Notes: generated by a model not told the origin, from the letters alone. 64,000 nucleotides of DNA from Natronoglycomyces albus (GCF_016925535.1 NZ_CP070496.1:3348001-3412000); one strand, 5' to 3'. Positions 1-57,246 are shown, numbered from the stretch's first letter. Numbers and translations are program-made.

Positions 1-492
1 AGCTGCCCGGGTTGCCAGTACTTCGAACTCACTTATGGCGAACAGATCAAAGAGTGGGTGAACAACGACCAGATCACGTTGAACTACCACCCGGTCAACT
101 TCCTCACTCGGGTCGGCGACCAGTTCTCGCTGCGAGCGGGAGCGGCCTCGGTATGCGCCGCCGATGAAGGCGAGCAAGAATACCTCGACTTCACTTTGGC
201 AATGTTCCAAAACCAGCCGGAAAGCGCCTCACAGAACGTGACAGACTCTGAAATCATCACGATCGGCGAAGGCGTCGGCCTGGGCCAGAGCTTTGCCGAC
301 TGTGTCAATGACGGTCGCTACCTGGGTTGGATTAGCGAAGGTTCGCAAGAGGCACGTGACGCGGGTATCGAGGGGACGCCGAGCGTCATCGTCAATGGCA
401 ACACCATTGGCAACGATGACGTGGTCGCCGAAGTGGAAGCCGCGATCGCCGAGGCCGGTGGCGAAGAGCCCACCGATGGCGAGGACACCTAA
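1..492 (+). CDS. DsbA-like thioredoxin-fold protein (5' end outside window)
   Basis: The reading frame is open from base 1, so the gene starts upstream. The visible part begins SCPGCQYFE, a CxxC (CPGC) redox motif at the start of a helix. Later come an alpha-helical insert and 'GIEGTPSVIVNG', the cis-Pro loop typical of DsbA-family proteins (cis-Pro after Thr). The C-terminus is a short acidic tail. DsbA-like proteins of actinobacteria are usually anchored at the membrane and oxidise or isomerise disulfides in exported proteins. The membrane anchor would lie in the missing part. The fold assignment is firm; the exact substrate is unknown. Confidence 0.85.
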   Translation, partial: SCPGCQYFELTYGEQIKEWVNNDQITLNYHPVNFLTRVGDQFSLRAGAASVCAADEGEQEYLDFTLAMFQNQPESASQNVTDSEIITIGEGVGLGQSFADCVNDGRYLGWISEGSQEARDAGIEGTPSVIVNGNTIGNDDVVAEVEAAIAEAGGEEPTDGEDT

Positions 493-40185: not shown

Positions 40186-40241
40186 TTTACTCCTCCTGAT
40201 CTGACTCATAAACTTCCGCAGAGATTCATAAACGTGAATCT
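40186..40241 (+). promoter_or_regulatory. Subtilase promoter with 5'-terminal hairpin, site 1
   Basis: TTTACT (40186-40191), 17 bp, TAAACT (40209-40214), then 7 nt and the hairpin AGATTCA/TGAATCT (40222-40228, 40235-40241, 6-nt loop). Start of transcription should be at about 40221, so the hairpin begins the mRNA. The 5' UTR would be about 185 nt. Confidence 0.75.
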
Positions 40242-40405
40242 GGTTCAACAAAGACACTGCTGCCGTAACCCCTATTTTGAGGCGTGGCCAACTTTGCAAA
40301 CCGACTTCGGCGGAGACCATTCTCTGATCCCCGCCGTTGGGCAAAGACAACCCCGCCTCGCCCGATAACCCACGGCCGCAGGACATTTAGAGGAGAACCC
40401 AGCAC

Positions 40406-42241
40406 ATGAGTAACAAAACATCCCTCCGCCAGCGGCTGCTAGCCGTCGGCTCGGCCGGGGCAATAGCGGCGGGCGCATTCGCCCTCGCGACCTCGCCAGC
40501 CCACGCCGAGGGCAACATCCTCGGCACCGACAACCCCGATGCCATCGAAGGCAGCTACATCGTCGTCCTCAACGAGAGCGAATTCTCCGCCCAGAGCGTC
40601 AACTCTCTGGCCACCAGCTACGACGCGACCGTCACTGCCGAGTGGGACCTCATCGACGGCTTTGCCGCCGAACTATCCGAGGCCGACGCCAAGAAACTGG
40701 CAGCCGACCCGGCGGTCAAGTACGTGGAACAAAACGCCGAAGTCAGTATCACCCAGGCAGGCGAGCAGCCAAACCCGCCAGCCTGGGGCATCGACCGCAT
40801 CGACCAGCGCTCACTTCCGCTGGACGATCTGTATGCCTACCCCAACACCGGCGCAGGCGTCACCATCTACGTGCTCGACACCGGCATCAACCTGACTCAC
40901 GAAGAGTTCACCGGACGCCTAGTACAAGGGCACGATGTGATCTCCCCCGGTGGCAACGCCAACGACTGCCACGGTCACGGCACCCACGTGGCAGGTTCGG
41001 CGGCTGGCACCCGCACCGGCGTGGCAAAGGAAGCCAGCCTGTCGCCGGTCCGCGTTCTCGACTGCAACGGTTCAGGCGCATGGGACGGCATCATCAGTGG
41101 CATCCAGTGGGCCACCGACGACATGAGCGGTCCGTCCGTGGCGAACATGAGCCTCGGCGGCGGCTACATTCAGTCGGTCAACGACGCGGTCAACGCCTCG
41201 TCCCGCGCCGGATTGACCCACGTGGTCGCCTCCGGCAACAACAACGCCGACGCCTGTAACTACTCTCCAGCCTCGGCCTCGGGAGCCATCACCGTCAACT
41301 CTTCGAATAGCCGCGACGCCAAGTCCAGCTTCTCGAACTTTGGAAGCCGCTGCACCGACCTGTACGCCCCCGGTGAGGCAATCTACGGGCCCTGGATCGG
41401 CGGCAACAACCGCTACAACTCCATTAGCGGCACGTCGATGGCCTCCCCGCACGTAGCGGGAGCGGCTGCTCTTTACTTGGCCGCCAACAACGGAGCGAGC
41501 CCCGAGCAGATTCGCAATGCCATCAACGGTAACGCCACCGAAGGTGTCATCTCGAACCCCAATGGAGACAACCTGCTGCTATACGTTGGCTTTATTGGCG
41601 GCGGCGACCCGGTCGACGGTTTCCGCGTCTCGGTGAGCCCCGATAGCGGCCATGTCGACGCTGGTGAATCCATTAGCGCGACCGTTCAGACCGAAACCAC
41701 CTCTGGCGACGCTCAGGAAGTCACCTTGTCGTACTCCGGTGCCGGTGAGGATGTCACGGTCGAATTCGCCGAGGACACCCTCACCACTGGTGAATCCACT
41801 GAGGTCACCTTTAGCGCCTCGGCCGATGCCGCTGACGCCGTCTATGACATCACCGTCACCGCATCGGGAAGCGTGGACCGCAGCGCGAGCTACACCCTCA
41901 GCGTGGGCGATGAGCCGGAACCTCCGGCTTGCTACGGCGAGAACAACTCGGCCCAGCCCATCCAGTTCGGCTGGATGACCACGTCGAACCTGAGTGTCGA
42001 ATGTGGCGACAAGTCCGGATCGGTGACCGTTGAGATCGACGTGAACCACAGCCAGTCGGCGGACTTGTGGTACATGCTGGTGGCTCCCAACGGCCAGACC
42101 TACACCCTGAAGAACGTCGGTCAACCCGACTCGGGTTCATACACGGTGAACGTCGGTGGAATCTCGGGCAACTACACGTTGCAGATTTTCAACCTGAGCT
42201 TCAGCGATGGAACTCTCAACGGCTGGTCCGTAGAAGGTTAG
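40406..42241 (+). CDS. Secreted subtilase with P-domain, protease A
   Basis: The product is 611 aa with GAGGAG upstream. Domains: signal peptide (1-34, cut after AHA), I9 propeptide (about 35-115, ending [12 protein letters not shown]), S8 catalytic domain with Asp 158, His 191, oxyanion Asn 278 and Ser 344 ([12 protein letters not shown]), an Ig-like segment (about 400-500), and a C-terminal P-domain ending [10 protein letters not shown]. The catalytic domain resembles proteinase K-type (S8A) enzymes. It is probably an exported protease that cleaves itself free of the propeptide. The P-domain may act in stability or substrate binding. Terminators follow at 42273 and 42643. Confidence 0.93.
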
Positions 42242-42272
42242 CCTTCCGCTCTGCGGGAGAAGCGCCCCTCAC

Positions 42273-42312
42273 CTCTGGGTTGCTTCGCACCAAAGTGTGA
42301 AGCAACCCAGAG
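42273..42312 (+). terminator. Hairpin after protease A
   Basis: An 18-nt stem (CTCTGGGTTGCTTCGCAC with one mismatch) and a 4-nt loop lie 32 nt after the stop codon. It lacks a T tract. Confidence 0.6.
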
Positions 42313-42642
42313 CGCTGAGGTTTCTCCACAGAGTTGAGGCCAGCGTAAGAGACGAGAGATCAAGCCCACGGCCAACACCGGGGTCCGGTGTATTCCGCGT
42401 GGCTACAGTGTCAAGACCGTCTAGTCGCCAGACCACCGGTAATTTTGCCGACGGCCAACTCTGACTCGTTTCAGGGGCCCGGCAATGGGAGGTTCCGGTG
42501 GTAGGTCGATTCGATAATGCGGTGTCATCGCCGGCCTTCGGAGGAATGGCCAGATACGCACTGTCTTGTCTCATAACGGCCTTGTGTCGCCACCGACCAC
42601 GCGAGAACGTATCGGGTTGACCCACCGGCAGGATCTCTTCTG

Positions 42643-42676
42643 GCCCCCATCACCTACAGACGCGGGTGATGGGGGC
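42643..42676 (+). terminator. Second terminator after protease A
   Basis: Stem GCCCCCATCAC/GTGATGGGGGC with a 12-nt loop and TTCATC following. The same 11-bp stem sequence is used 311 nt after the next protease gene. Confidence 0.65.
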
Positions 42677-42975
42677 TTCATCATGCCCAAGATTCGTACG
42701 AGCGCTCGTGCATACTTTCCCTTGCCACCCCCGCGAACCGTGCGGGGCTGGCCCCATGCGGGCCATTTCTCCCCCATATTTACCTTGTGATCGAAGGCGC
42801 ATGAGAATCGAAGGACAAACGCCAAAACCTTCATTCCAGCCGAAGAAAACGGCTGACACCCTATCTGCGTCCATCGGATTTTGGCCGCACCACTGGACCC
42901 TATGACCTTTCTTTCAAAGGCTAGAACTTTTGGCAGCGCCTGAAAGTTAGTTTTGTCAGTACGCACATCGAAACA

Positions 42976-43032
42976 TTTACATTTCGCCGTATCGAGGCTT
43001 ATGGTTCCGCACAGATTCACAGTCATGAATCT
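42976..43032 (+). promoter_or_regulatory. Subtilase promoter with 5'-terminal hairpin, site 2
   Basis: TTTACA (42976-42981), 18 bp, TATGGT (43000-43005), 7 nt, then AGATTCA (43013-43019) and TGAATCT (43026-43032) with a 6-nt loop. The 5' UTR to ATG 43170 is about 158 nt. Confidence 0.72.
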
Positions 43033-43169
43033 AATTCATATAAATTCCCTGTCGCCGTACCCCGATCGGTCGACTAAAGCTGGTTCGCCAACCCCGGTCA
43101 TCTCCGAATGACAAGGGCGGACCCACTTGAAGCGACACGGTGGCAGGACATTCAAGGGAGCACCTCTCT

Positions 43170-45014
43170 ATGAGTAAGAAAACAACCCTGGGAAGGCGGC
43201 TGCTCGCAGTCGCCGCCACCGGGGCGCTCGCGGCGGGCTCATTCGCCCTCATCACCTCACCCGCGCACGCCGAGGGAAATATCCTCGGCACCGACAACCC
43301 CGAGGCCATCGAAGGCAGCTACATCGTCACCCTCAAGGACGGCGCCAGCACTGCCAGCGCCGGTTCGCTCAGCTCCACCTACGATGCGGAAATCACCGCT
43401 GAGCTGCCCATCATCAACGGGTTCGCCGCCGAAATGAGTGAGGCTGACGCCAAGCGTCTGGCCGCGGACTCCTCGGTGGACTTCGTGGAGCAAGACGCTA
43501 TAGCGTCGGTGACATCGGCGGGCGTGCAACCGAACCCGCCGTCGTGGGGCCTGGACCGTATCGACCAGGTCAACTTGCCGCTGGACAACAGCTACTCCTA
43601 TCCCAACCAGGGATCGGGAGTCACCGCCTACATCTTCGACAGTGGCATGAACCTGGGCCACGAGGAGTTCACCGGCCGTATCGCTGGTAGCCGTGACTAC
43701 ATCAGCTCTGGTGGAAACGGTGCCGACTGTAATGGTCACGGCACTCACGTGGCCGGAACCGTTGGTGGCACCCGTACTGGTGTGGCCAAGAACGTCGACT
43801 TCTTCAACATCAAGGTGCTCGACTGCGAGGGAAACGGTCCGTGGAGCGGCACCATCAATGGGCTGCAATGGGTGGCCAACAATGCCTCCGGTCCCTCGGT
43901 GGTGAACATGAGCCTCGGTGGCGGCTTCAACCAGTCGGTCAACAACGCTGTCAACAACACGGTGGCCGCTGGGGTGCCGGTGGTCGTGGCCTCTGGTAAC
44001 AGCAACGCCAACGCCTGCAACTACTCGCCGGCCTCGGCCCAGAACGCCCTGACGGTCAATAACTCGACGTCTTCGGACGCTCGCCGCTTCGACTCCAACT
44101 TCGGTAGCTGCACCGATCTGTTCGCCCCCGGCGACCGGATCTACGCTCCGTGGATTGGTGGTAGCAACCGCTACAACACCATCGGTGGCACCTCGATGGC
44201 TTCCCCGCACGTGGCGGGCGCGGCTGCCATGTATTTGGCCGAGAACCCGAGTGCGACTCCGTCTCAGGTCTACAGTGCGATTACCAGCAATGCCAGCACT
44301 GGCTTGGTCTCGAACCCGGGTTCGGGTTCGCCCAACCGCTTGTTGAACATCGACTTCATTGGTGGTTCCGATCCCGGTGATCCAGAGGATGAGTTCTCGA
44401 TCTCCTTGAGCCCCAGCAGTGGCACGATTTCAGCTGGAGAGTCGGTCACCGCGACCCTTTCGAGCGAAACCACCTCTGGTGACGCTCAAGAAGTGACGTT
44501 GTCTCACTCCGGTGCCGGAAGCGGAGTCACCGTCGAATTCGCCAACGACACGCTGACCACTGGCAACTCCACCGAGGTGACCTTCACCGCCAGCACCAAT
44601 GCTCCGGCTGGGTCGCACTCGATCACCGTGACCGCAGCTGGTTCGGTTGAGCGCACCGCGGGCTACAGCTTGACGGTGGAAGGTGACAGCACGCCGCCGG
44701 AGTGCCGTGGCGAGAATTCCTCGTCACAGACCATTCACGCTGGATGGATCGCGGCTTCGAATATTCGCCTCGACTGCGGAAGCGCTAGGGGTTCGGTGAC
44801 CGTGACGGTCGACGTGTCGCACGCCAGCAAGGGTGAATTGTGGTACCGACTTGTCGGGCCCAATGGCGCGAGCTATGACCTGAAGCCGTTTGGCTCAGCC
44901 GACCGTGGCACCTACACGGTCAATGTCGGTGGTAAGTCAGGTACCTACACCCTGGAGGTGTGGAACTTCTCTAACCGCAACGGAACTCTCAACGGCTGGT
45001 CCGTGGCCGGTTAG
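43170..45014 (+). CDS. Secreted subtilase with P-domain, protease B
   Basis: The product is 614 aa from ATG 43170 (GGGAG box upstream). It has the same layout as protease A: signal peptide (cut after AHA at about 34), I9 propeptide, S8 domain with Asp 157, His 190, Asn 277 and Ser 342, an Ig-like segment ([20 protein letters not shown] is nearly the same as in A), and a P-domain ending [10 protein letters not shown]. The Ser motif is [12 protein letters not shown] where others have SGTS. The Asp motif is IFDSG instead of VLDTG. Secreted and probably self-processed. Confidence 0.93.
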   Translation: MSKKTTLGRRLLAVAATGALAAGSFALITSPAHAEGNILGTDNPEAIEGSYIVTLKDGASTASAGSLSSTYDAEITAELPIINGFAAEMSEADAKRLAADSSVDFVEQDAIASVTSAGVQPNPPSWGLDRIDQVNLPLDNSYSYPNQGSGVTAYIFDSGMNLGHEEFTGRIAGSRDYISSGGNGADCNGHGTHVAGTVGGTRTGVAKNVDFFNIKVLDCEGNGPWSGTINGLQWVANNASGPSVVNMSLGGGFNQSVNNAVNNTVAAGVPVVVASGNSNANACNYSPASAQNALTVNNSTSSDARRFDSNFGSCTDLFAPGDRIYAPWIGGSNRYNTIGGTSMASPHVAGAAAMYLAENPSATPSQVYSAITSNASTGLVSNPGSGSPNRLLNIDFIGGSDPGDPEDEFSISLSPSSGTISAGESVTATLSSETTSGDAQEVTLSHSGAGSGVTVEFANDTLTTGNSTEVTFTASTNAPAGSHSITVTAAGSVERTAGYSLTVEGDSTPPECRGENSSSQTIHAGWIAASNIRLDCGSARGSVTVTVDVSHASKGELWYRLVGPNGASYDLKPFGSADRGTYTVNVGGKSGTYTLEVWNFSNRNGTLNGWSVAG

Positions 45015-45018
45015 TCCA

Positions 45019-45050
45019 CCTTGGGCAGGGGCTTGAGCCTCTGCCCAAGG
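45019..45050 (+). terminator. Hairpin after protease B
   Basis: A 14-bp stem (CCTTGGGCAGGGGC/GCCTCTGCCCAAGG with one mismatch) with a 4-nt loop lies 5 nt after the stop codon. Confidence 0.7.
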
Positions 45051-45325
45051 AAACATTTTCTGGCAAGAGCGTTAGGTTCGCGGCGGTTACCGAGTTCGGT
45101 TCGGGGCCGCCGCGAATTCGGGCCTGTAGACGGGCTCTATGAGTTCGGGGCCGTGCCTAGCTCTGGGGAACTGTGTATTGCACGTGTTTCATTTCTAGCC
45201 GCACGTTTGAGCCCAGGTGCGGGTGTGTGGCCGATGGACCGGTTTCTCCTTCGGGTTCCTCGGCGGCACACGTCCGAAACTAGGTGGAATCGCAGAGGGT
45301 TGATTTGTGGCACGGTCGCTTTGCC

Positions 45326-45364
45326 GCCCCCATCACTGGAGTCCAATGGTGATGGGGGCTTTTT
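45326..45364 (+). terminator. Second terminator after protease B
   Basis: Stem GCCCCCATCAC/GTGATGGGGGC with a 12-nt loop followed by TTTTT. It has the same stem as the element after protease A. Confidence 0.85.
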
Positions 45365-45622
45365 CGTGGCTTTGGCGATGGCCGAACTTGGGTAGCTAGG
45401 AATGGGTGCGATGAGCATGGAGGGCAAGGCTTGGGTTCGCCTAAGTGGACTTCGATGGGTACCTTGTGCGACAGTCAAAGGCGCCCGAGCCATGTGGAAT
45501 TTTTCTTCACTCCAGGGTCAGACTTGGTGGAAAACTATTCACTGAATGCGGTTGAAACGTCAACAATCTCAACACAAATAGACAACCGCTCAATAAGTTC
45601 GGACGACGCGCCCATTTCAATA

Positions 45623-45678
45623 TTTACAGGCGTGGATATGGCTCATAGGCTTCCGCATAGATTCATAAACGTGAATCT
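45623..45678 (+). promoter_or_regulatory. Subtilase promoter with 5'-terminal hairpin, site 3
   Basis: TTTACA (45623-45628), 17 bp, TAGGCT (45646-45651), 7 nt, then AGATTCA (45659-45665) and TGAATCT (45672-45678). The 5' UTR to ATG 45851 is about 193 nt. Confidence 0.75.
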
Positions 45679-45850
45679 ATTGCAAACCGAATCCGCAGCA
45701 GCCTTCCTCCTCCTTTGTTTGGCCACCACCAACCTGAACGCCCCATAGGCACCAACTAGCACTTGGTCATAAGTCCCTTGCGCGTGAGATCGGTTCCCGG
45801 TGCGCCACATGCCTCCGGTAGGGCTGCCGCCAAGATAGGGAGCATCCACC

Positions 45851-47041
45851 ATGAAGACGAAGAAGACCCTTCGTGTACTTACCGCCCTAGGTTCCGCCGG
45901 CGCCATCGCCATCGGAACTCTGGCGCTATCGGCCACACCCGCGCAAGCCGAAGGAACCATCCTCGGCGCGGACAACCCCGACGCCATCGAGAATAGCTAT
46001 CTCGTCACGCTCGAGAGCGAATTGTCCACACCGGAGATCGGCAGCTTCGCCGAATCCTTCAACGGCACCGTCACCTCCGAATGGGACGTCATCGACGGCT
46101 TCGCCGTCGAAATGACTGAGGACGACGCCAAACTGATGGCGGGGCACCCCGACGTCAAGATGGTCGAGCAAGACGCCGAAGTCAGCATCACCTCACCGGG
46201 CCAGCAACCGAACCCACCTTCGTGGGGCCTCGACCGAGTAGACCAGCGCAACCTGCCGCTAGACAACAGCTACTCCTGGCCTAACTCCGGCACCGGAGTG
46301 ACGGTCTACGTTCTCGACACCGGCATCAACCTCACCCACCAGGAGTTCACCGGCCGCCTCGCCCGCGGATACGACGCTGTTACCCCCGGTGGCAACGCCA
46401 ATGACTGTCAGGGACACGGGACCCACGTCGCTGGCACCATCGGTGGCACGCGGACCGGCGTGGCCAAGAACGTCACCCTCGTACCGGTGCGCGTCCTCAA
46501 CTGCGCCGGCTCGGGAACCTGGGGACAGGTCATTGACGGCATCAACTGGTCGACCAATAACTTCTCCGGTCCTTCGGTGGCTAACATGAGCCTCGGCGGC
46601 GGCTCCAACGCCACCCTCGACGCGGCTGTCAACGCCTCGGTCAACGCTGGTTTGACCCACGTGGTCGCCTCCGGCAACAGCAATGCCAACGCCTGCAACT
46701 TCTCCCCCGCCGGAGCCGCCGGAGCTATTTCGGTGAACTCCTCCAACAGTGCCGACAGCCGTTCGTTCTTCTCCAACTGGGGAACCTGCACGGACCTGTT
46801 CGCCCCTGGTGAATCCATCTTCGGCCCCTGGATTGGTGGCAACAGCTCGTACAACACCATTAGCGGCACCTCGATGGCTTCCCCCCACGTGGCTGGCGGA
46901 GCCGCACAGTACCTCTCCTCCAACCCTGGCGCTTCCCCCGCGCAGGTACGTAACGCACTGACCAGCAACGCTACCCCTGGCGTCATCTCCAACCCCGGAC
47001 CTGGTTCCCCGAACCTGCTGTTGTACGTGAGCAACTTCTAA
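45851..47041 (+). CDS. Secreted subtilase without P-domain, protease C
   Basis: The product is 396 aa with a GGGAG box. It has the signal peptide (1-33, AQA), I9 propeptide (about 34-113), and S8 domain with Asp 156, His 189, Asn 275 region and Ser 341, ending right after the catalytic domain (LLLYVSNF). It lacks the Ig-like and P-domain parts of A, B and E. It is closely similar to protease D (same signal peptide, RNLPLDNSYSWPNSGTGVTV). Both are probably secreted S8A peptidases. Confidence 0.93.
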   Translation: MKTKKTLRVLTALGSAGAIAIGTLALSATPAQAEGTILGADNPDAIENSYLVTLESELSTPEIGSFAESFNGTVTSEWDVIDGFAVEMTEDDAKLMAGHPDVKMVEQDAEVSITSPGQQPNPPSWGLDRVDQRNLPLDNSYSWPNSGTGVTVYVLDTGINLTHQEFTGRLARGYDAVTPGGNANDCQGHGTHVAGTIGGTRTGVAKNVTLVPVRVLNCAGSGTWGQVIDGINWSTNNFSGPSVANMSLGGGSNATLDAAVNASVNAGLTHVVASGNSNANACNFSPAGAAGAISVNSSNSADSRSFFSNWGTCTDLFAPGESIFGPWIGGNSSYNTISGTSMASPHVAGGAAQYLSSNPGASPAQVRNALTSNATPGVISNPGPGSPNLLLYVSNF

Positions 47042-47090
47042 ACCTCAATCGCCACACAATGCGATAAGGCAGTGTCACCTTTGTGTCACA

Positions 47091-47127
47091 GGGCCCCGCT
47101 CAGGGAATTACATCCCCGGCGGGGCCC
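47091..47127 (+). terminator. Hairpin after protease C
   Basis: Stem GGGCCCCGC/GCGGGGCCC with a 19-nt loop lies 50 nt after the stop. Weak T tract. Confidence 0.6.
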
Positions 47128-47259
47128 GTTGTCGTTAGTCGGCCAGATCCACAAACGTCAATCAGCGCGACCAGGCCCCTAGAACTTGCCCCAAAGCCAT
47201 CTTCAGTAACACAACTGAACACTTACTCAATTTGTTCGCACTATTCATCCATTTCAATC

Positions 47260-47315
47260 TTTACAACCGAGGTCTTTCCTCTTACGCTTCCGCATAGATT
47301 CATGAACGTGAATCA
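47260..47315 (+). promoter_or_regulatory. Subtilase promoter with 5'-terminal hairpin, site 4
   Basis: TTTACA (47260-47265), 17 bp, TACGCT (47283-47288), 7 nt, then AGATTCA (47296-47302) and TGAATCA (47309-47315), one mismatch at the base of the stem. The 5' UTR to ATG 47480 is about 185 nt. Confidence 0.72.
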
Positions 47316-47479
47316 ATGCATACCGCATCCGCAGCAGTCCTCACCCCGACATTTGGCCGACGCCACCCTGGAAGCGCACCCGGCTCGCACCCTCACAATG
47401 CCCATGCCCATGCGCGAAGGCCGAACCCCGGCGCCACCTGTCGACGGCGTGCCTGCCGCAAAGATTGGGAGCACCCGAA

Positions 47480-48670
47480 ATGAATACGAAAAAGACCCTC
47501 CGGCGACTCATAGCCCTCGGCTCCGCTGGCGCCATTGCCATCGGCACCCTGGCACTTTCCGCCTCGCCCGCCCAAGCCGAGGGAACCATCCTCGGCACAA
47601 ATAGCCCCGGCACCATCGAAAACAGCTACCTCGTCACGCTCGAAGACGAACTGTCCACCTCCGAAATCAACGGGTTCGCCCGTTCGTTTCGTGGCACCAT
47701 CACCTCGGAGTGGGAAGCCCTCAACGGCTTTGCCATCGACATGACCGAGCGCGAAGCCAAGCGCATGGCCGCCCACCCCAACGTCAAGATGGTCGAACAA
47801 AACGCCGAAGTCAGCATCGCCTCCGCAGGTGAGCAACCCAACCCGCCCTCATGGGGCCTCGACCGAGTAGATCAGCGCAACCTGCCGCTGGACAACAGCT
47901 ACTCGTGGCCCAACTCTGGCACCGGAGTGACGGTCTACGTCATCGACACCGGCATCAACCTCAAACACGAGGAGTTCACCGGACGCCTCGCCCCCGGATA
48001 CGACGCCGTGAACCCCGGCCGCAGTGCCAATGACTGCAATGGCCACGGCACCCACGTCGCCGGCACCATCGGCGGCACGGAAACCGGCGTAGCCAAGAAC
48101 GTCACCCTTGTGCCCGTGCGGGTTCTCAACTGTTCTGGCTCGGGAACCTGGGAACAAGTTATCGACGGCATCAACTGGGCCACCGACAACTTCTCCGGTC
48201 CCTCGGTGGCCAACATGAGCCTCGGCGGCGGCGCCAACGCCACCCTCGACGCGGCCGTCAACGCATCAGTGGAGGCTGGCCTCACCCAAGTAGTGGCCTC
48301 CGGCAACAGCAACGCCAACGCCTGCAACTATTCGCCGGCTCGGGCCTCAGGCGCGATCACGGTGAACTCATCCAACAGCTCGGATGCCCGGTCATCCTTC
48401 TCCAACTGGGGAAGCTGCACCGACCTCTTCGCGCCAGGAGAGGCGATCTATGGCCCCTGGTCTGGCGGAAGTAAGGGCTACCGGACCATTAGCGGCACCT
48501 CGATGGCCGCCCCGCACGTGGCCGGAGGTGCGGCCCTGTACCTATCGTCGAACCCAAACGCCTCTCCCAGCCAAGTCCGCAACGCCCTGACCAACACCGC
48601 CACCACTGGCGTCATCTCCAACCCCGGAACCGGTTCTTCGAACCTGCTGTTGTACGTGAGCGACTTCTAA
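47480..48670 (+). CDS. Secreted subtilase without P-domain, protease D
   Basis: The product is 396 aa from ATG 47480 with GGGAG about 9 nt upstream; a TTG further upstream is unlikely. It is a close paralogue of C: same length, signal peptide cut after AQA, I9 propeptide, and S8 domain with Asp 156, His 189 and Ser 341 (SGTSMAAPHVAG). The Asp motif is VIDTGINLKH. It is most probably a recent tandem duplicate of C. The MITE-like copy 2 follows about 105 nt after the stop. Confidence 0.93.
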   Translation: MNTKKTLRRLIALGSAGAIAIGTLALSASPAQAEGTILGTNSPGTIENSYLVTLEDELSTSEINGFARSFRGTITSEWEALNGFAIDMTEREAKRMAAHPNVKMVEQNAEVSIASAGEQPNPPSWGLDRVDQRNLPLDNSYSWPNSGTGVTVYVIDTGINLKHEEFTGRLAPGYDAVNPGRSANDCNGHGTHVAGTIGGTETGVAKNVTLVPVRVLNCSGSGTWEQVIDGINWATDNFSGPSVANMSLGGGANATLDAAVNASVEAGLTQVVASGNSNANACNYSPARASGAITVNSSNSSDARSSFSNWGSCTDLFAPGEAIYGPWSGGSKGYRTISGTSMAAPHVAGGAALYLSSNPNASPSQVRNALTNTATTGVISNPGTGSSNLLLYVSDF

Positions 48671-48775
48671 TCGCGCATCTAAAAACTAGATAGGTCGTCG
48701 GCGTCGCTGCCATCACCTGGCATCGAATCCAGTGGCCCGGCACTGTGAGGTAGCTCTGTGAGACTGCCTCACCTA

Positions 48776-48939
48776 AGAGCTCCTATCAGGTTTCTCTTCC
48801 TACTGCGGTGGAGTGATGTCGCGCCTGGCCGCGTTGTCGGCCCTTGCCCATACCCGCTGGGTATGAACAAGGGCCTCCGCCTCCCCACGCACTGACAGCA
48901 CACCATCCTCGCCACGGAAACAAACCTGATAGGAGCTCT
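48776..48939 (-). mobile_element. MITE-like 164-bp element, copy 2
   Basis: This copy is the reverse complement of copies 1 and 3 with the same TIRs (AGAGCTCCTATCAGGTTT and AAACCTGATAGGAGCTCT). TAA lies on both flanks counted outside GAGCTC (TAA|GAGCTCC, GGAGCTC|TAA), a possible 3-bp target duplication. It lies in the 1.1-kb gap between proteases D and E. The rest of 48940-49356 shows no gene. Confidence 0.85.
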
Positions 48940-49356
48940 AAAGATCTCGCCCTGGGCCCCATTGAGGTGACCCAGGGCGAGATTCATTGTGGGGCGAATG
49001 TGCCAGAGCAACCCCTGTCAGTAGGCAGTTCCATTCGTGGGTCGACCCGTAATGACACCGGGTGCGGCGACTCGGGCTATATATCCTCGCCCTGTGGCGC
49101 CGCCACCAAAGCCCGCCCACAACGATCTCGCGCCCGCAGCTTTACGGTGCCCAGAAACCTCCACTGTGCGATCACCCCGGTTTCGCACAGTAGGAATACA
49201 GAAAATCCGATTTATATACGCACATCCGTCAATGCTTGCTTTGAAAAGACGTCACAGAGTTCGTGGGCCCAATGCAGGGATTTCACCTCATCGTCCCCTA
49301 TGTCAACTCGACTTAACACCCGCTAAATAAGTTGGATCTGTAAACGTATTTTATTG

Positions 49357-49412
49357 TTTACATTCATGGATTTGACTCTTAGGCTTCCGCTTAGATTCAT
49401 GAATGTGAATCT
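49357..49412 (+). promoter_or_regulatory. Subtilase promoter with 5'-terminal hairpin, site 5
   Basis: TTTACA (49357-49362), 17 bp, TAGGCT (49380-49385), 7 nt, then AGATTCA (49393-49399) and TGAATCT (49406-49412). The 5' UTR to ATG 49826 is about 434 nt, more than twice that of the others, and holds no convincing small gene. Confidence 0.72.
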
Positions 49413-49825
49413 GGTTCAACCGCGAATCTCATGCATTCACGGAGAAAAACGGCCGTTCGAGCACGCTCAATGCCCGAGCGACCAACGTGTCCCAACCTGA
49501 ACTGAACAGGCGACTCTCCCCCGGTCGTCGCCGCCACACCTACACACGATCGCCCCGGTCTTGTGAGTCACCCTTTCAGCGGCGTCAGACAGAAAACGAG
49601 TCTTGCCATTCAGCACAGGCGGAAACGACCACTCCGTAACGCATGCGATTCACACCCCGCCGTCACTGCCCACCCCGAATTGGCCACAGCCAGCATCGAG
49701 CACTCACCGCCCCTGTGCCGACCATCGACTGAAACGGCTTCCAGGGTCGCCTGAGCATTCGAAGCTGTCCTGCCCAATGCAAATCCGGCAGTCGCTGCGG
49801 GAAACCCTGAAGGAGAACCCAGCAC

Positions 49826-51676
49826 ATGAGTACAAAGAAATCCCTCCGGCGCAGCGTTATAGCTGTCGCCTCGGCAGGGGCAATCGCGGTGGGCACCATA
49901 GCCCTCGCCACCTCTCCGGCCCAAGCCGAGGGAAACATCCTCGGCACCGACCACCCCAATGCCATCGAAGGCAGCTACCTAGTCACCCTCGAAAGTGACG
50001 TCTCCATCCAAAGCGTCGACACCTTCGCCGACACCTACGGCGCCGAAGTCACCTCAGAGTGGACATCCTTTAACGGATTCGCCGCCGAGATGACCGAGGC
50101 GGAAGCCAAGAAACTGGCCGCCGACCCGGCCGTCAAGTTCGTCGAACAAGACGCCGAAGTACACCTAGCCAGCGCTGGTGTGCAACCCAACCCGCCCGCC
50201 TGGGGCATCGACCGCGTCGACCAGCGCAATCTTCCGCTCGATGGGCAATACGCCTATCCCAACCAAGGCACTGGTGTCACGCAGTACATCCTCGACACCG
50301 GCGTCTATTTGAGCCACTCCGAATTCACCGGCCGTATGGTGCAGGGATTTGACGCGATCAACCCCGGCGGCAACGCCAACGACTGTCACGGACACGGTAC
50401 GCACGTGGCCGGATCAGCGGCGGGAACTTTGACCGGCGTCGCGAAGAACTCCTACATTTCCCCGGTTCGGGTTCTCAACTGCCAGGGCTCAGGGTCGTTC
50501 GCTGGCATCATTGACGGAATTAACTGGGTTTCCAACAACGCCTCCGGTCCGTCGGTGGCCAACATGAGCCTGGGCGGCGGCTACAACGCCACCCTCAACC
50601 AGGCCGTGGCCTCCGGTGTCGCCGCTGGTGTCACGTACGTGGTTGCCTCCGGCAACAGCAACGCCAACGCTTGTAACTACTCGCCAGCCAGTGAAGCTAC
50701 TGCCATTACCGTTAACTCCTCGACTCGCACCGATGCCCGTTCGGGATTCTCCAACTGGGGAACCTGCTCGGACATCTTCGCTCCGGGATCTGACATCTAT
50801 GGACCTTGGATCGGAGGCAACAACGCCTTCCGTACCATTAGCGGCACCTCGATGGCTTCCCCGCACGTGTCCGGGGCCGCGGCTCTGTACTTGGCTTCCA
50901 ACCCCAGCGCCACCCCGGCGCAGGTGAAGCAGGCTTTGACCTCGAACGCCACCCAGGGTGTCATTTCCAACCCCGGCAGTGGATCGCCCAACCGCCTGCT
51001 TTACGTCGGATTCATCGACGGTGGCCCGGGCGAGCCCGAGGACGAGTTCTCGGTTTCGGTCTCTCCCGACAGCGCCGAAATTGAGCCCGGTGACTCTGTC
51101 ACCGCGACGTTGAGCACCGAGACGACCTCCGGCGACGCGCAAGAGGTCACCCTGTCGCACTCCGGAGCCGGTTCGGACGTGACTGTGGACTTTGCCGACA
51201 GCACCTTGACCACTGGTGAATCCACGCAGGTGACGTTCTCTGCCAGCTCCAACGCCAGCGACGCGACGCACTCGATCACGTTGACCGCCTCTGGAAACAA
51301 CGACGAATCGACCACCTTCACTCTGACGGTGGGCGATGAGCCGGTTGAGCCTCCGCCGGGCGACTGCGTCGAGGAGAACAACAACTCGCAGACAATCCAT
51401 GCTGGCTGGTTGGTCTCGTCGAACATTCTGATGGTCTGTGATGACGCTGGCTCGACGGCGACGATCAATGTGGACGTAACCCACTCGGCCACGCAGAACC
51501 TCGAATACTACGTGTTCGACCCTGCCGGTCAAGTGCACCTCATTAAGCCTCGGGGTCAGACCGACTCGGGCACCTACACGATCAACGCGGGCTCTGCTGG
51601 ATGGGGCTACTACACACTCATCATCTTCAACTACGGCAATTCCGGCACGCTGAACGGTTGGTCGGTCGAAGTCTAG
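49826..51676 (+). CDS. Secreted subtilase with P-domain, protease E
   Basis: The product is 616 aa with GGAGA upstream. The layout matches A and B: signal peptide (cut after AQA), I9 propeptide, S8 domain with Asp 157, His 190, Asn 277 and Ser 342 ([12 protein letters not shown]), Ig-like segment ([20 protein letters not shown]), and P-domain ending [10 protein letters not shown]. The 5' end up to the start codon resembles protease A closely. Secreted, probably self-processed. Confidence 0.93.
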   Translation: MSTKKSLRRSVIAVASAGAIAVGTIALATSPAQAEGNILGTDHPNAIEGSYLVTLESDVSIQSVDTFADTYGAEVTSEWTSFNGFAAEMTEAEAKKLAADPAVKFVEQDAEVHLASAGVQPNPPAWGIDRVDQRNLPLDGQYAYPNQGTGVTQYILDTGVYLSHSEFTGRMVQGFDAINPGGNANDCHGHGTHVAGSAAGTLTGVAKNSYISPVRVLNCQGSGSFAGIIDGINWVSNNASGPSVANMSLGGGYNATLNQAVASGVAAGVTYVVASGNSNANACNYSPASEATAITVNSSTRTDARSGFSNWGTCSDIFAPGSDIYGPWIGGNNAFRTISGTSMASPHVSGAAALYLASNPSATPAQVKQALTSNATQGVISNPGSGSPNRLLYVGFIDGGPGEPEDEFSVSVSPDSAEIEPGDSVTATLSTETTSGDAQEVTLSHSGAGSDVTVDFADSTLTTGESTQVTFSASSNASDATHSITLTASGNNDESTTFTLTVGDEPVEPPPGDCVEENNNSQTIHAGWLVSSNILMVCDDAGSTATINVDVTHSATQNLEYYVFDPAGQVHLIKPRGQTDSGTYTINAGSAGWGYYTLIIFNYGNSGTLNGWSVEV

Positions 51677-51753
51677 TGACTACGTCACGACATTGAATAG
51701 TTACCTACCGGTACAACAATTGAACAATGTGTATTCACTACTAAACTCAATGT

Positions 51754-51800
51754 GAATTAAAGGCCCACTGGCAACTTTATTGCCAGTGGGCCTTTAATTC
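51754..51800 (+). terminator. Strong hairpin after protease E
   Basis: A perfect 20-bp stem (GAATTAAAGGCCCACTGGCA and its complement) lies 78 nt after the stop, with a TTTAATTC end. It can act in both directions. Confidence 0.85.
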
Positions 51801-51973
51801 ACTGAATTACCGCTCAGTAATGTCTTACTCACTGCGCCAAATTACGCCGTGAGCAGGGAATACATCGAAGATGTGACCAATAGGGCCACCGTCAGAACAA
51901 ATTGTTAATTCAGACATATATATTGTTCTGTTATCACATTTCACTGCCCGCACTAAATCCAAACTTGCTTATA

Positions 51974-52030
51974 TTTACAGTTCTCGCCTATTCGAGTTAA
52001 GGTGCGACGTATGCCTCAAAAGATGAGGCA
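51974..52030 (+). promoter_or_regulatory. Subtilase promoter with a different 5' hairpin, site 6
   Basis: TTTACA (51974-51979), 18 bp, TAAGGT (51998-52003), 8 nt, then the hairpin TGCCTCA/TGAGGCA (52012-52018, 52024-52030, 5-nt loop). Same geometry as sites 1-5 but a different stem sequence with the same 7-bp length. The 5' UTR to ATG 52214 is about 203 nt. Confidence 0.68.
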
Positions 52031-52213: not shown

Positions 52214-53401
52214 ATGCAAAAGAAATCCCTCCGTCGCGCAGCAATAGCCGTCGCTTCGGCCGGCGCACTAGCCGCGGGCTCCTTCGCACTCGTTTCGGCA
52301 CCGGCCAGCGCCGACAACACAGCACCCACCGGCGACGTACTGGGCGTCGACAACACCGACAAGATCCACGGCGAATACATTGTGGTGCTCAACTCCGAGC
52401 TATCCACTATGAACACCGGCGCATACGACGTGGATATCACCGCCCAGTGGGAGTTCATGAACGGCTTTGCCGCTCAGATGACTTACGCTCAGGCGCAGAA
52501 GATCGCCGCCGACCCCAACGTCAAGTTCGTCGAGCAAAACGCCGTGGTCACGATCCAAGACGCTGGCAGCCAGCCGAACCCACCTTCGTGGGGGCTGGAC
52601 CGTATCGACCAAGCGGACCTTCCTCTTGACGAGACCTACAACTACCCCAACACCGCATCAGACGTCACCGCCTACATCCTCGACACAGGTGTCAACTTGA
52701 CCCACGAAGACTTCGCCGGACGCATGGTCGAAGGCTACGACGCCGTAACCCCAGGTGGCGACGCCGACGACTGTCAGGGGCACGGCACGCACGTGGCCGG
52801 CACCGTGGCGGGTACTGAATACGGAGTGGCCAAGGGCGCCAGCATCTCTCCAGTGCGGGTCCTCGACTGCAATGGTTCGGGCTCCTACGCTGGCATCATC
52901 GACGGCATCGAATGGGCCACCGAGAACGCCTCGGGTCCCTCGGTAGCCAACATGAGCCTCGGTGGACCGTCTGACGCTTCGCTTAACGCGGCCGTCGACG
53001 CCTCCTCGGCCGCTGGCCTGACCCACGTCGTGGCCGCAGGAAACAGCGGTGACAACGCCTGCAACTACTCCCCGGCCGGTGCGGACAGCGCCATCACCGT
53101 TGGTTCGACGACCAGCACCGATGCTCGCTCATCGTTCTCCAGCCTGGGCGAATGTGTTGACTTGTTCGCTCCTGGTTCGGACATCACCGCGCCTTGGATC
53201 GGAAGCGACACCGCCACCAACACCATTAGCGGAACCTCGATGGCTTCGCCGCACGTGGCCGGTGCCGCCGCCTTGTTCCTACAGGACAACCCGGACGCCT
53301 CCCCTGAGGACGTTCGCGCTCACCTGACCTCCACCGCTTCGGAAGGCAAGGTCGGCAACCCGGGCACCGGAAGCCCGAACCTGCTGCTCTTCGTCGGATA
53401 G
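52214..53401 (+). CDS. Secreted subtilase without P-domain, protease F
   Basis: The product is 395 aa from ATG 52214 (GAGGAGA upstream). It has a signal peptide (cut near ASA, 33), I9 propeptide, and S8 domain with Asp 157, His 190, Asn 277 (AAGNSGDNACNYSP) and Ser 342 ([12 protein letters not shown]). It is more distant from A-E: the mature part starts DNTAPTGDVLG rather than [10 protein letters not shown]. It is probably secreted. A strong terminator follows. Confidence 0.93.
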   Translation: MQKKSLRRAAIAVASAGALAAGSFALVSAPASADNTAPTGDVLGVDNTDKIHGEYIVVLNSELSTMNTGAYDVDITAQWEFMNGFAAQMTYAQAQKIAADPNVKFVEQNAVVTIQDAGSQPNPPSWGLDRIDQADLPLDETYNYPNTASDVTAYILDTGVNLTHEDFAGRMVEGYDAVTPGGDADDCQGHGTHVAGTVAGTEYGVAKGASISPVRVLDCNGSGSYAGIIDGIEWATENASGPSVANMSLGGPSDASLNAAVDASSAAGLTHVVAAGNSGDNACNYSPAGADSAITVGSTTSTDARSSFSSLGECVDLFAPGSDITAPWIGSDTATNTISGTSMASPHVAGAAALFLQDNPDASPEDVRAHLTSTASEGKVGNPGTGSPNLLLFVG

Positions 53402-55067: not shown

Positions 55068-55127
55068 CAACCTGTGGATTGGGGCTGGCAAGGACCTGTG
55101 GGTTCCTTTCTTCACGTCCAGCCATTA

Positions 55128-55145
55128 AGAGCTCCTGTCAGGTTT
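55128..55145. repeat. Solo terminal repeat of the MITE family
   Basis: AGAGCTCCTGTCAGGTTT matches the 18-bp end of the 164-bp element with one change, preceded by TTA. No other half is near except the full copy 3 starting 358 nt away. It may be a relic of a decayed or larger parent element. Confidence 0.55.
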
Positions 55146-55485: not shown

Positions 55486-55649
55486 AGAGCTCCTATCAGG
55501 TTTGTTTCCGTGGCGAGGATGGTGTGCTGTCAGTGCGTGGGGAGGCGGAGGCCCTTGTTCATACCCAGCGGATATGGGCAAGGGCCGACAACGCGGCCAG
55601 GCGCGACATCACTCCACCGCAGTAGGAAGAGAAACCTGATAGGAGCTCT
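55486..55649 (+). mobile_element. MITE-like 164-bp element, copy 3
   Basis: It has the 18-bp TIRs AGAGCTCCTATCAGGTTT and AAACCTGATAGGAGCTCT with no mismatch. The body is near-identical to copy 1. TAA flanks both sides outside GAGCTC, as in copy 2. It ends 3 nt before repeat family B copy 2. No other gene is visible in 55216-55813. Confidence 0.87.
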
Positions 55650-55652
55650 AAG

Positions 55653-55752
55653 GAGGCTTACGCACAAGTGCACATTCAAGGCCGCAGGAGGCGAAGTTTA
55701 CGACGGCAGACGAGTCGACGAGAACACCGAAAGCACCTCTTTCACGAGCCTC
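55653..55752 (-). repeat. 100-bp palindromic repeat family B, copy 2
   Basis: In reverse orientation to the copy at 37198-37299, sharing most of the body including the GTAAACTTCGCCTCCTGCGG block (seen here on the minus strand). It starts 3 nt after the MITE copy 3. Confidence 0.72.
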
Positions 55753-55813: not shown

Positions 55814-55841
55814 TTTACATTCATCTATTTGTTGCTATGAT
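55814..55841 (+). promoter_or_regulatory. Subtilase promoter candidate without hairpin, site 7
   Basis: TTTACA (55814-55819), 16 bp, TATGAT (55836-55841). Downstream I cannot find the 7-bp hairpin of the other six promoters. Confidence 0.5.
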
Positions 55842-56055: not shown

Positions 56056-57246
56056 ATGGCAGCAATATCTCTGCGGCGCACCAGCCTCGCTCTGGTTTCG
56101 GCCAGTGCGCTCCTCATCGGCGCGATGACCTTGGCCCCCACGATGGCTACCGCCGATGTATCCCAGGACCGAGCGCAAGTGCTCGGCATCGACGATCCCG
56201 ACAAGATCCCCGGCAGTTACATAGTCGGTTTGCACAGTGAGCTTTCCACCACCAGTGTCGATCAGCTCGCCCTCCAATATGAAGCGACTGTATCCGCTCA
56301 GTGGAGTGTCATTGACGGATTCGCCGCCCAGATGTCTCACGCCCAAGCCGAACGGCTCGCGGCACACCCCGATGTCGAGTTTGTCGAACAGGACGCTCGC
56401 GTACACATTCCCGTCGGTGTCAAACCCACTCCGCCTGGCTGGAACCTCGATCGCATCGACCAGCGGTACCTTCCGCTGGATGGCATATACGATCCGTTGA
56501 ACAACGGCGCCGGGGTTGACATCTATATCCTCGATACCGGCATCTTCGCGGGCCACAACGACTTTGGAGGACGAGTCGGTGCCGGATACGACGCTGTCGG
56601 CGGCGGCACCGACGACTGCCAAGGCCACGGCACCTTCATAGCCGGGATTGCCGGAGGCACCCACTATGGAGTAGCCGCCGAGGCCAACCTGATTCCCGTG
56701 CGGGTGCTCAATTGCCACGGCTCGGGCTCGGTCGCGGGCATCATCGACGGTATCGACTGGATCGTCAACGACGCTTCCTCAACTGTGATCGCCAATGCGA
56801 GCATTGGCGGCATGTTGAACACCTCCCTCAACAATGCGGTGGACGCGGCCTTCGCCGCAGGGGTGTTCTTCGTGACTGGAGCTGGCAGCTCCAACGCCAA
56901 CGCCTGCAACTTCTCCCCCGCTAGCGCCCAGGGCGCATACGTGGCGGCGGCGACTAACATCAACGACACGGTTCCGCCGCAGTCGAACTGGGGCCCCTGC
57001 GTTGACATTTACGCGCCCGGAGTGAACATCACTGGGCCGGGTATCGGTGGACCCAATGACACGATAACCATGAGTGGTGGCTCATTCGCCGCGCCGCACG
57101 TGGCTGGGGCGGGGGCGATCGTGCTGCATGACAACCCTGGTTTCTCGGCCGCGGACATCGCCAGCTGGCTAAGCCAGAACTGCACCAGCGGCGTGATCGT
57201 GAATCCGAACGGCCCGGACTGCCTCCTGTATGTCGGCCAAGACTAA
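56056..57246 (+). CDS. Divergent secreted subtilase, protease G
   Basis: The product is 396 aa from ATG 56056, the first start that gives a proper signal peptide (SLALVSASALLIGAMTLAPT, cut near ATA). It has an I9 propeptide and an S8-type domain with Asp 160 (ILDTG), His 191 (GHGTFIAG) and Ser 343 (SGGSFAAPHVAG). The oxyanion-hole Asn of the other six is replaced: VASGN becomes VTGAGS, with Ser 278 in that position. The Ser motif is GGSF rather than GTSM. The protein may have weak or altered activity. It lacks a P-domain. Confidence 0.85.
   Translation: MAAISLRRTSLALVSASALLIGAMTLAPTMATADVSQDRAQVLGIDDPDKIPGSYIVGLHSELSTTSVDQLALQYEATVSAQWSVIDGFAAQMSHAQAERLAAHPDVEFVEQDARVHIPVGVKPTPPGWNLDRIDQRYLPLDGIYDPLNNGAGVDIYILDTGIFAGHNDFGGRVGAGYDAVGGGTDDCQGHGTFIAGIAGGTHYGVAAEANLIPVRVLNCHGSGSVAGIIDGIDWIVNDASSTVIANASIGGMLNTSLNNAVDAAFAAGVFFVTGAGSSNANACNFSPASAQGAYVAAATNINDTVPPQSNWGPCVDIYAPGVNITGPGIGGPNDTITMSGGSFAAPHVAGAGAIVLHDNPGFSAADIASWLSQNCTSGVIVNPNGPDCLLYVGQD

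Follow-up and report, generated by a model that had tools for sequence, protein, structure and literature searches.

A predicted 5'-terminal mRNA hairpin downstream of a common promoter type at subtilase genes of Natronoglycomyces albus and related genera

The soda-soil actinobacterium Natronoglycomyces albus ACPA22T (Glycomycetaceae), which hydrolyzes casein and gelatin (PMC8289206), carries a tandem array of secreted subtilase genes, six of which share a promoter followed immediately by an inverted repeat. This arrangement raises the question of whether the repeat acts as RNA structure at the 5' end of the mRNAs or as a DNA operator bound by a protein. The genome has been described as a 3.94 Mbp chromosome with two plasmids of 59.8 and 14.8 kb (PMC8289206), and the assembly used here comprises 4,012,379 bases in 3 contigs. 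The window, i.e., the whole stretch of 64,000 nucleotides that was analysed (NZ_CP070496.1:3348001-3412000), lies within the 3,937,850-base chromosome. Genes A to F encode, in tandem, secreted S8 peptidases with an I9 propeptide, to which a P_proprotein domain is added in A and B. The Peptidase_S8 domain was identified in all seven cluster proteins (A to G) with scores far above the cut-off. The genes and their promoter sites are as follows, in window coordinates.

Site A, 40186..40241, + strand: -35 TTTACT (40186-40191), -10 TAAACT (40209-40214), hairpin AGATTCA-TAAACG-TGAATCT (40222-40241)
Gene A, 40406..42241, + strand: secreted subtilase, S8 + I9 + P_proprotein
Site B, 42976..43032, + strand: -35 (42976-42981), spacer 18, -10 TATGGT (43000-43005), hairpin AGATTCA-CAGTCA-TGAATCT (43013-43032)
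Gene B, 43170..45014, + strand: subtilase, S8 + I9 + P_proprotein
Site C, 45623..45678, + strand: -35 (45623-45628), -10 TAGGCT (45646-45651), hairpin (45659-45678), extendable to 9-10 bp
Gene C, 45851..47041, + strand: subtilase, S8 + I9
Site D, 47260..47315, + strand: -35 (47260-47265), -10 TACGCT (47283-47288), hairpin (47296-47315), one outer pair broken
Gene D, 47480..48670, + strand: subtilase, S8 + I9
Site E, 49357..49412, + strand: -35 (49357-49362), -10 TAGGCT (49380-49385), hairpin AGATTCA-TGAATG-TGAATCT (49393-49412)
Gene E, 49826..51676, + strand: subtilase with C-terminal extension, S8 + I9
Site F, 51974..52030, + strand: -35 (51974-51979), spacer 18, -10 TAAGGT (51998-52003), gap 8, hairpin TGCCTCA-AAAGA-TGAGGCA (52012-52030)
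Gene F, 52214..53401, + strand: subtilase, S8 + I9
Promoter of gene G, 55814..55841, + strand: TTTACA-16-TATGAT, no 5' hairpin, the exception within the cluster
Gene G, 56056..57246, + strand: seventh cluster subtilase, without hairpin, S8 + I9

All six sites have the layout that the first-pass annotation had reported, i.e., a -35 box TTTAC[A/T], a spacer of 17 (A, C, D, E) or 18 (B, F) bp, a -10 box TAnnnT and, after a gap of 7 (A to E) or 8 (F) nt, a 7-bp stem enclosing a loop of 6 (A to E) or 5 (F) nt. The arm sequences likewise agree with that description: AGATTCA/TGAATCT is common to A to E, with one mismatch in D, and TGCCTCA/TGAGGCA is found in F, where three of seven pairs are altered on both sides relative to the A to E stems. 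The A to F hairpins were compared by hand, as MAFFT leaves the left arm of F out of register with A to E because the F loop is 1 nt shorter. At six of six sites the hairpin starts 7-8 nt past TAnnnT, which is the usual start-site position and thus the predicted 5' end, and in the complete predicted leaders its pair probability is about 0.97 (A to D) or about 0.59 (E). From hairpin end to ATG the leaders measure 137-413 nt. One point of the annotation needed adjustment: the cluster contains gene G as a seventh subtilase. The only Rfam match in the window was a tRNA, with no riboswitch or other RNA family at the hairpins. The cluster also contains a 168-nt element in two inverted copies (48772-48939 and 55486-55653; 99% complementary, with ends like TAAGAGCTCCTATCAGGTTT) and a partial end of it at 55120-55145; it resembles a MITE and flanks part of the array. 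In addition, several S8 genes have in common an upstream block (TTCAAGGCCGCAGGAGGCGAAGTTTACG...), located at 55660-55740 of the window and at two loci elsewhere (L161 and L163).

Within the genome, the pattern AGATTCA-N4..8-TGAATC occurs five times in 4.0 Mb, always in the subtilase cluster, with 0 expected from window shuffles, and TTTAC-N-15..18-TAnnnT occurs about 40 times; these counts come from pattern searches requiring one restricted end base and an exact TAnnnT. A genome-wide promoter-like set was assembled from TTTAC- and TTGAC-type sites with TAnnnT and searched for hairpins (stem of 7 bp or more with no more than one G-U pair, loop of 3-9 nt) starting 4-11 nt after the -10 box. Such hairpins follow seven of nine S8-linked promoters vs two of 95 others (1/65 TTGAC and 1/30 other TTTAC sites; Fisher p=6e-8, or 6e-4 with A to E counted once). 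The seventh positive S8 site precedes a gene of about 1022 aa at 3586807 (minus strand), where TTTACA-17-TAGGCT-8 leads into a 10-bp stem unrelated in sequence to A to F. Its large S8 neighbor at 3590036 (minus strand) has TAGTCT-10-GCGCGGA(8)TCCGCGC, and between the two genes the stem carries three double changes while the loop CCCCCTT is kept. The two S8-linked sites lacking a qualifying hairpin are those of gene G and of a gene at 333440 (minus strand); in the latter, part of the A to E sequence persists in register although the stem is broken, and a 7-bp hairpin with a 6-nt loop lies 16 nt after the -10 box, 9 nt further on than usual, which looks like a shifted hairpin. Two other protease genes of this genome have pairing of a different layout: an S8 gene (L163, G000:C1:2265766, plus strand) has a perfect 12-bp hairpin 50 nt before the ATG with no clear promoter, and an S1-type protease gene (L347, G000:C1 near 3014400) has TACGCT followed by TGTCTGA[20 nt]TCAGACA, which might form a 5' helix around a larger loop. 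As a control set, trypsin-family (PF00089) genes yielded one recognizable promoter only.

The first-pass annotation had proposed a search of related genomes for the promoter plus hairpin upstream of S8 genes. This search, in the nearest relatives (other genera of the same GTDB family), returned the same promoter and position with unrelated stems: in four other genera, the hairpin of S8 genes lies at the same offset from the -10 box, with arms unlike those of A to E. Small S8 genes of genus g5 (G004, G372, G373) have TTTACA-17-TACKCT-4..9-GGYUCGU(GCCC)GCGARCC, followed by a second hairpin; that of G013 has TTTACA-17-TACTCT-6-UGUCGUACC(CAAC)GGUAUGACA, and that of G025 a 10-bp stem. G163 and G178 have one common promoter sequence, yet their stems are UGUGAG/CUCACG and CAUAAG/CUUAUG, respectively. 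Furthermore, promoter and hairpin also precede a second, larger S8 family in about 25 related genomes. In genus g12, its orthologues (21 genomes) are preceded by TTTACA-17-TAGGCT-7-GUGCGCCGC...GCGGCGC, and another, inner hairpin is frequent there. In g5, the leader of G372 has TACGAT-7-ACAUGCGC(8)GCGCAUGU as a terminal hairpin, and G004 and G373 carry an identical stem. A g12 group with TAACCT promoters is a weak case: at the start there is no more than a GNRA mini-hairpin of 3 bp, and the better hairpin lies further in.

S8 genes account for 17 of 49 TTTACA-17-TAnnnT sites in 12 genomes, and a hairpin follows the -10 box at 11/17 S8 vs 7-8/32 non-S8 TTTACA promoters of the clade (p=0.008), a contrast that is no longer significant with loops of at most 9 nt. 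The element is favored by S8 genes and is not exclusive to them. Non-S8 examples include an rbpA-like gene of genus g12 (L301, G180:C7:111526-111596, minus strand; G165:C1:141443; G011:C34:84906) with TTTACA-17-TAGAAT and the 5' hairpin GGGCGG/CCGCCC, a DoxX-like gene (L300, G165:C1:195497) with an 11-bp hairpin (one G-U pair) 3 nt after the -10 box, and a maltose-binding-protein-like gene. In a wider set of 191 upstream regions of S8 genes from many phyla, no peak of hairpins was found at a particular gap after the -10 box; either the feature is clade-limited or promoters elsewhere went unrecognized.

Compensatory base changes, which the first-pass annotation had suggested looking for in relatives, were found in the homologous leaders. 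In the g5 small-S8 alignment (six sequences), 96% of cells are paired and 8 are double-change cells; none of 500 shuffles reached its covariation score, and all slid controls scored far lower. In the g12 large-S8 alignment (21 sequences), 99% are paired, with double changes at two pairs and G-U pairs; the exchanges run from G-C to A-U and from C-G to U-A with G-U intermediates. Few events underlie these counts, so their weight lies in the recurrence across independent sets. The g5 loop GCCC is kept while the arms around it change, as is CCCCCTT in the large-S8 pair of N. albus. Folding z-scores of 32-nt windows against dinucleotide shuffles point to the same place: in 20 small-S8 promoters of relatives they drop to about -1.3 to -1.7 at 0-9 nt past the -10 box, whereas they stay near 0 over the stretch 60 to 20 nt ahead of that box and again once 30 nt beyond it, and at the A to G promoters of N. 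albus they reach -3.4. In the homologous leaders, pairing rather than sequence is thus kept through compensatory and G-U changes, while the A to E arms are conserved in sequence as well. Taken together, covariation, G-U pairs and kept loops favor RNA structure over one conserved protein operator, and we are largely confident that the element exists and that the clade has conserved it as an RNA structure. The reading of RNA structure instead of an operator put forward in the first-pass annotation is well supported by the different stems at the same place, the compensatory changes, the G-U pairs and the kept loops of related genera, and is qualified by the A to E arm sequence, whose conservation amid saturated surroundings it had missed.

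The mechanism that we consider the most probable, albeit with appreciable doubt, is that these predicted mRNAs start with a 5'-terminal hairpin, selected for its pairing and position, that hides the 5' end from decay and gives long-lived protease messages. Each subtilase gene would be transcribed from its own sigma-70-type promoter (TTTACA/TAnnnT), and with initiation some 7 nt past the -10 box, the mRNA would open with a hairpin of 7-10 bp (about 20 nt), leaving almost no free 5' nucleotides. Selection would act on the pairing and the 5'-end position and not on a single fixed sequence. Like a cap, the hairpin would probably keep pyrophosphohydrolase and the 5'-end-dependent RNases (RNase J, RNase E) away from the 5' end; an RNase J homologue (496 bits) is encoded in the genome. 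The outcome that we infer, from start site through stabilization to benefit, would be durable messages for abundant secreted proteases and a sustained exoprotease output. That a 5'-terminal hairpin guards mRNA against 5'-end-dependent decay is established elsewhere (PMC3997798). In Mycolicibacterium smegmatis, however, a tested 5' double hairpin gave no mRNA stabilization and no general correlation was found (PMC11728522), which makes the step from structure to stability uncertain in Actinobacteria. Protection from decay at the subtilase mRNAs is therefore put forward as plausible.

Structure alone does not account well for the A to E group. Their proteins are 60-82% identical, fourfold sites 41-62% and leaders 23-45%, whereas identity reaches 93-100% in the arms and 71-100% in the TTCCGC discriminator. 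Selection on structure alone would let the arms drift, so their conservation amid coding regions saturated at fourfold sites counts against a purely structural reading and suggests that the sequence itself is also read there. The A to E group may be subject to a DNA- or RNA-binding factor or to a constraint on the start site. One alternative thus combines an RNA hairpin with a sequence that, in A to E, is read in trans by an RNA-binding protein or small RNA or is held by a start-site or promoter-escape constraint. Pairing kept across the clade with sequence kept in A to E only is what it expects, but no candidate partner was found and the variable A to E loops (TAAACG, CAGTCA, TGAACG, TGAATG) speak against loop recognition; we consider it unlikely, with some chance of being right. 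In a broader form, to which we give the same low credence, the leader hairpins would amount to lineage-wide post-transcriptional exoprotease control, one promoter class being joined to a 5' hairpin that a protein or small RNA would read in trans as well; if so, many protease mRNAs would be stabilized or released together.

Slightly less probable still is a pure protein operator, in which a dimeric repressor or activator would bind the dyad AGATTCA-N6-TGAATCT at +1 to +20 and co-regulate A to E, with F and the relatives binding other proteins or being unrelated. A dyad over the predicted start site is in a classic operator position, the AGATTCA dyad is confined to co-located genes, and the arms and discriminator of A to E have kept their sequence where divergence has affected loop, spacer, leader and fourfold sites. 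Against this, F and the S8 genes of four other genera have other arms at this offset, and to account for them a whole series of regulators would have to be assumed; in g5 as well as the large-S8 pair, it is the loops that are kept and the arms that covary, whereas an operator predicts the reverse; and G-U pairs are present. A half-site common to all promoters, as a dimeric operator would have, is seen only within A to E, since F and the relatives differ. No regulator gene with the AGATTCA motif was found: a search of the genome for a second dyad near such a gene returned a sole other match with one mismatch, at 194821, in a gap near ispE and rsmA-like genes. Finally, it is very improbable that the A to E hairpins merely reflect recent duplication or gene conversion and the others random GC-rich stems: A to E do lie in tandem, GC-rich leaders fold easily and 7-8/32 non-S8 TTTACA promoters of the clade have a stem there, but the fourfold sites are saturated and the leaders unrelated, which excludes that entire regions were copied recently; only at the 5' end do the z-scores against dinucleotide shuffles peak; and covariation recurs in independent homologous sets.

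The preferred reading, a protective 5'-terminal hairpin, has well-known counterparts. In the Bacillus subtilis aprE (subtilisin) mRNA (Hambraeus et al. 2000, 2002, cited in PMC11805744, PMC3997798 and PMC7509114), a stem-loop likewise lies at the extreme 5' end of a secreted S8 protease message, upstream of a strong ribosome-binding site; it makes the mRNA extremely stable, and its removal shortens the half-life from >25 to about 5 min (PMC11805744). Unlike in N. albus, that system belongs to another phylum, with no sequence relation expected, and concerns one gene instead of two S8 families with a common promoter type; stabilization was measured there and is predicted here, where leaders reach about 430 nt. 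The first-pass annotation had professed to know of no such cassette in subtilase arrays, which is fair for this lineage, although B. subtilis offers a known subtilisin message with a stem-loop at its 5' end; the open-access literature held no description of such an element in this lineage, which is weak evidence of novelty. The Escherichia coli ompA and papA stem-loops, as summarized in PMC3997798 (citing Emory 1992, Arnold 1998, Bricker 1999), also combine 5'-terminal pairing with an exact stem sequence that is immaterial, and block 5'-end-dependent decay; in contrast, these are gamma-proteobacterial outer-membrane and pilin genes in which the effect was tested, while here we infer it. Closest in phylogeny is the esxB 5' UTR of M. 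smegmatis, an actinobacterial mRNA with a double hairpin near its 5' end, whose failure to stabilize a reporter is a warning for the mechanism proposed here (PMC11728522). We therefore regard the N. albus element as a genuine, lineage-conserved predicted 5'-terminal mRNA hairpin with a likely protective function. Its presence at two S8 families in at least four genera, together with the similar B. subtilis device, suggests that a structured 5' end has arisen repeatedly on exoprotease messages. These hairpins are natural, repeated and covarying, and occur in Actinobacteria, where a role of such structures in stability has recently been questioned (PMC11728522); with their naturally varying stems, they offer a direct way to test what 5' structure does in actinobacterial mRNA decay.
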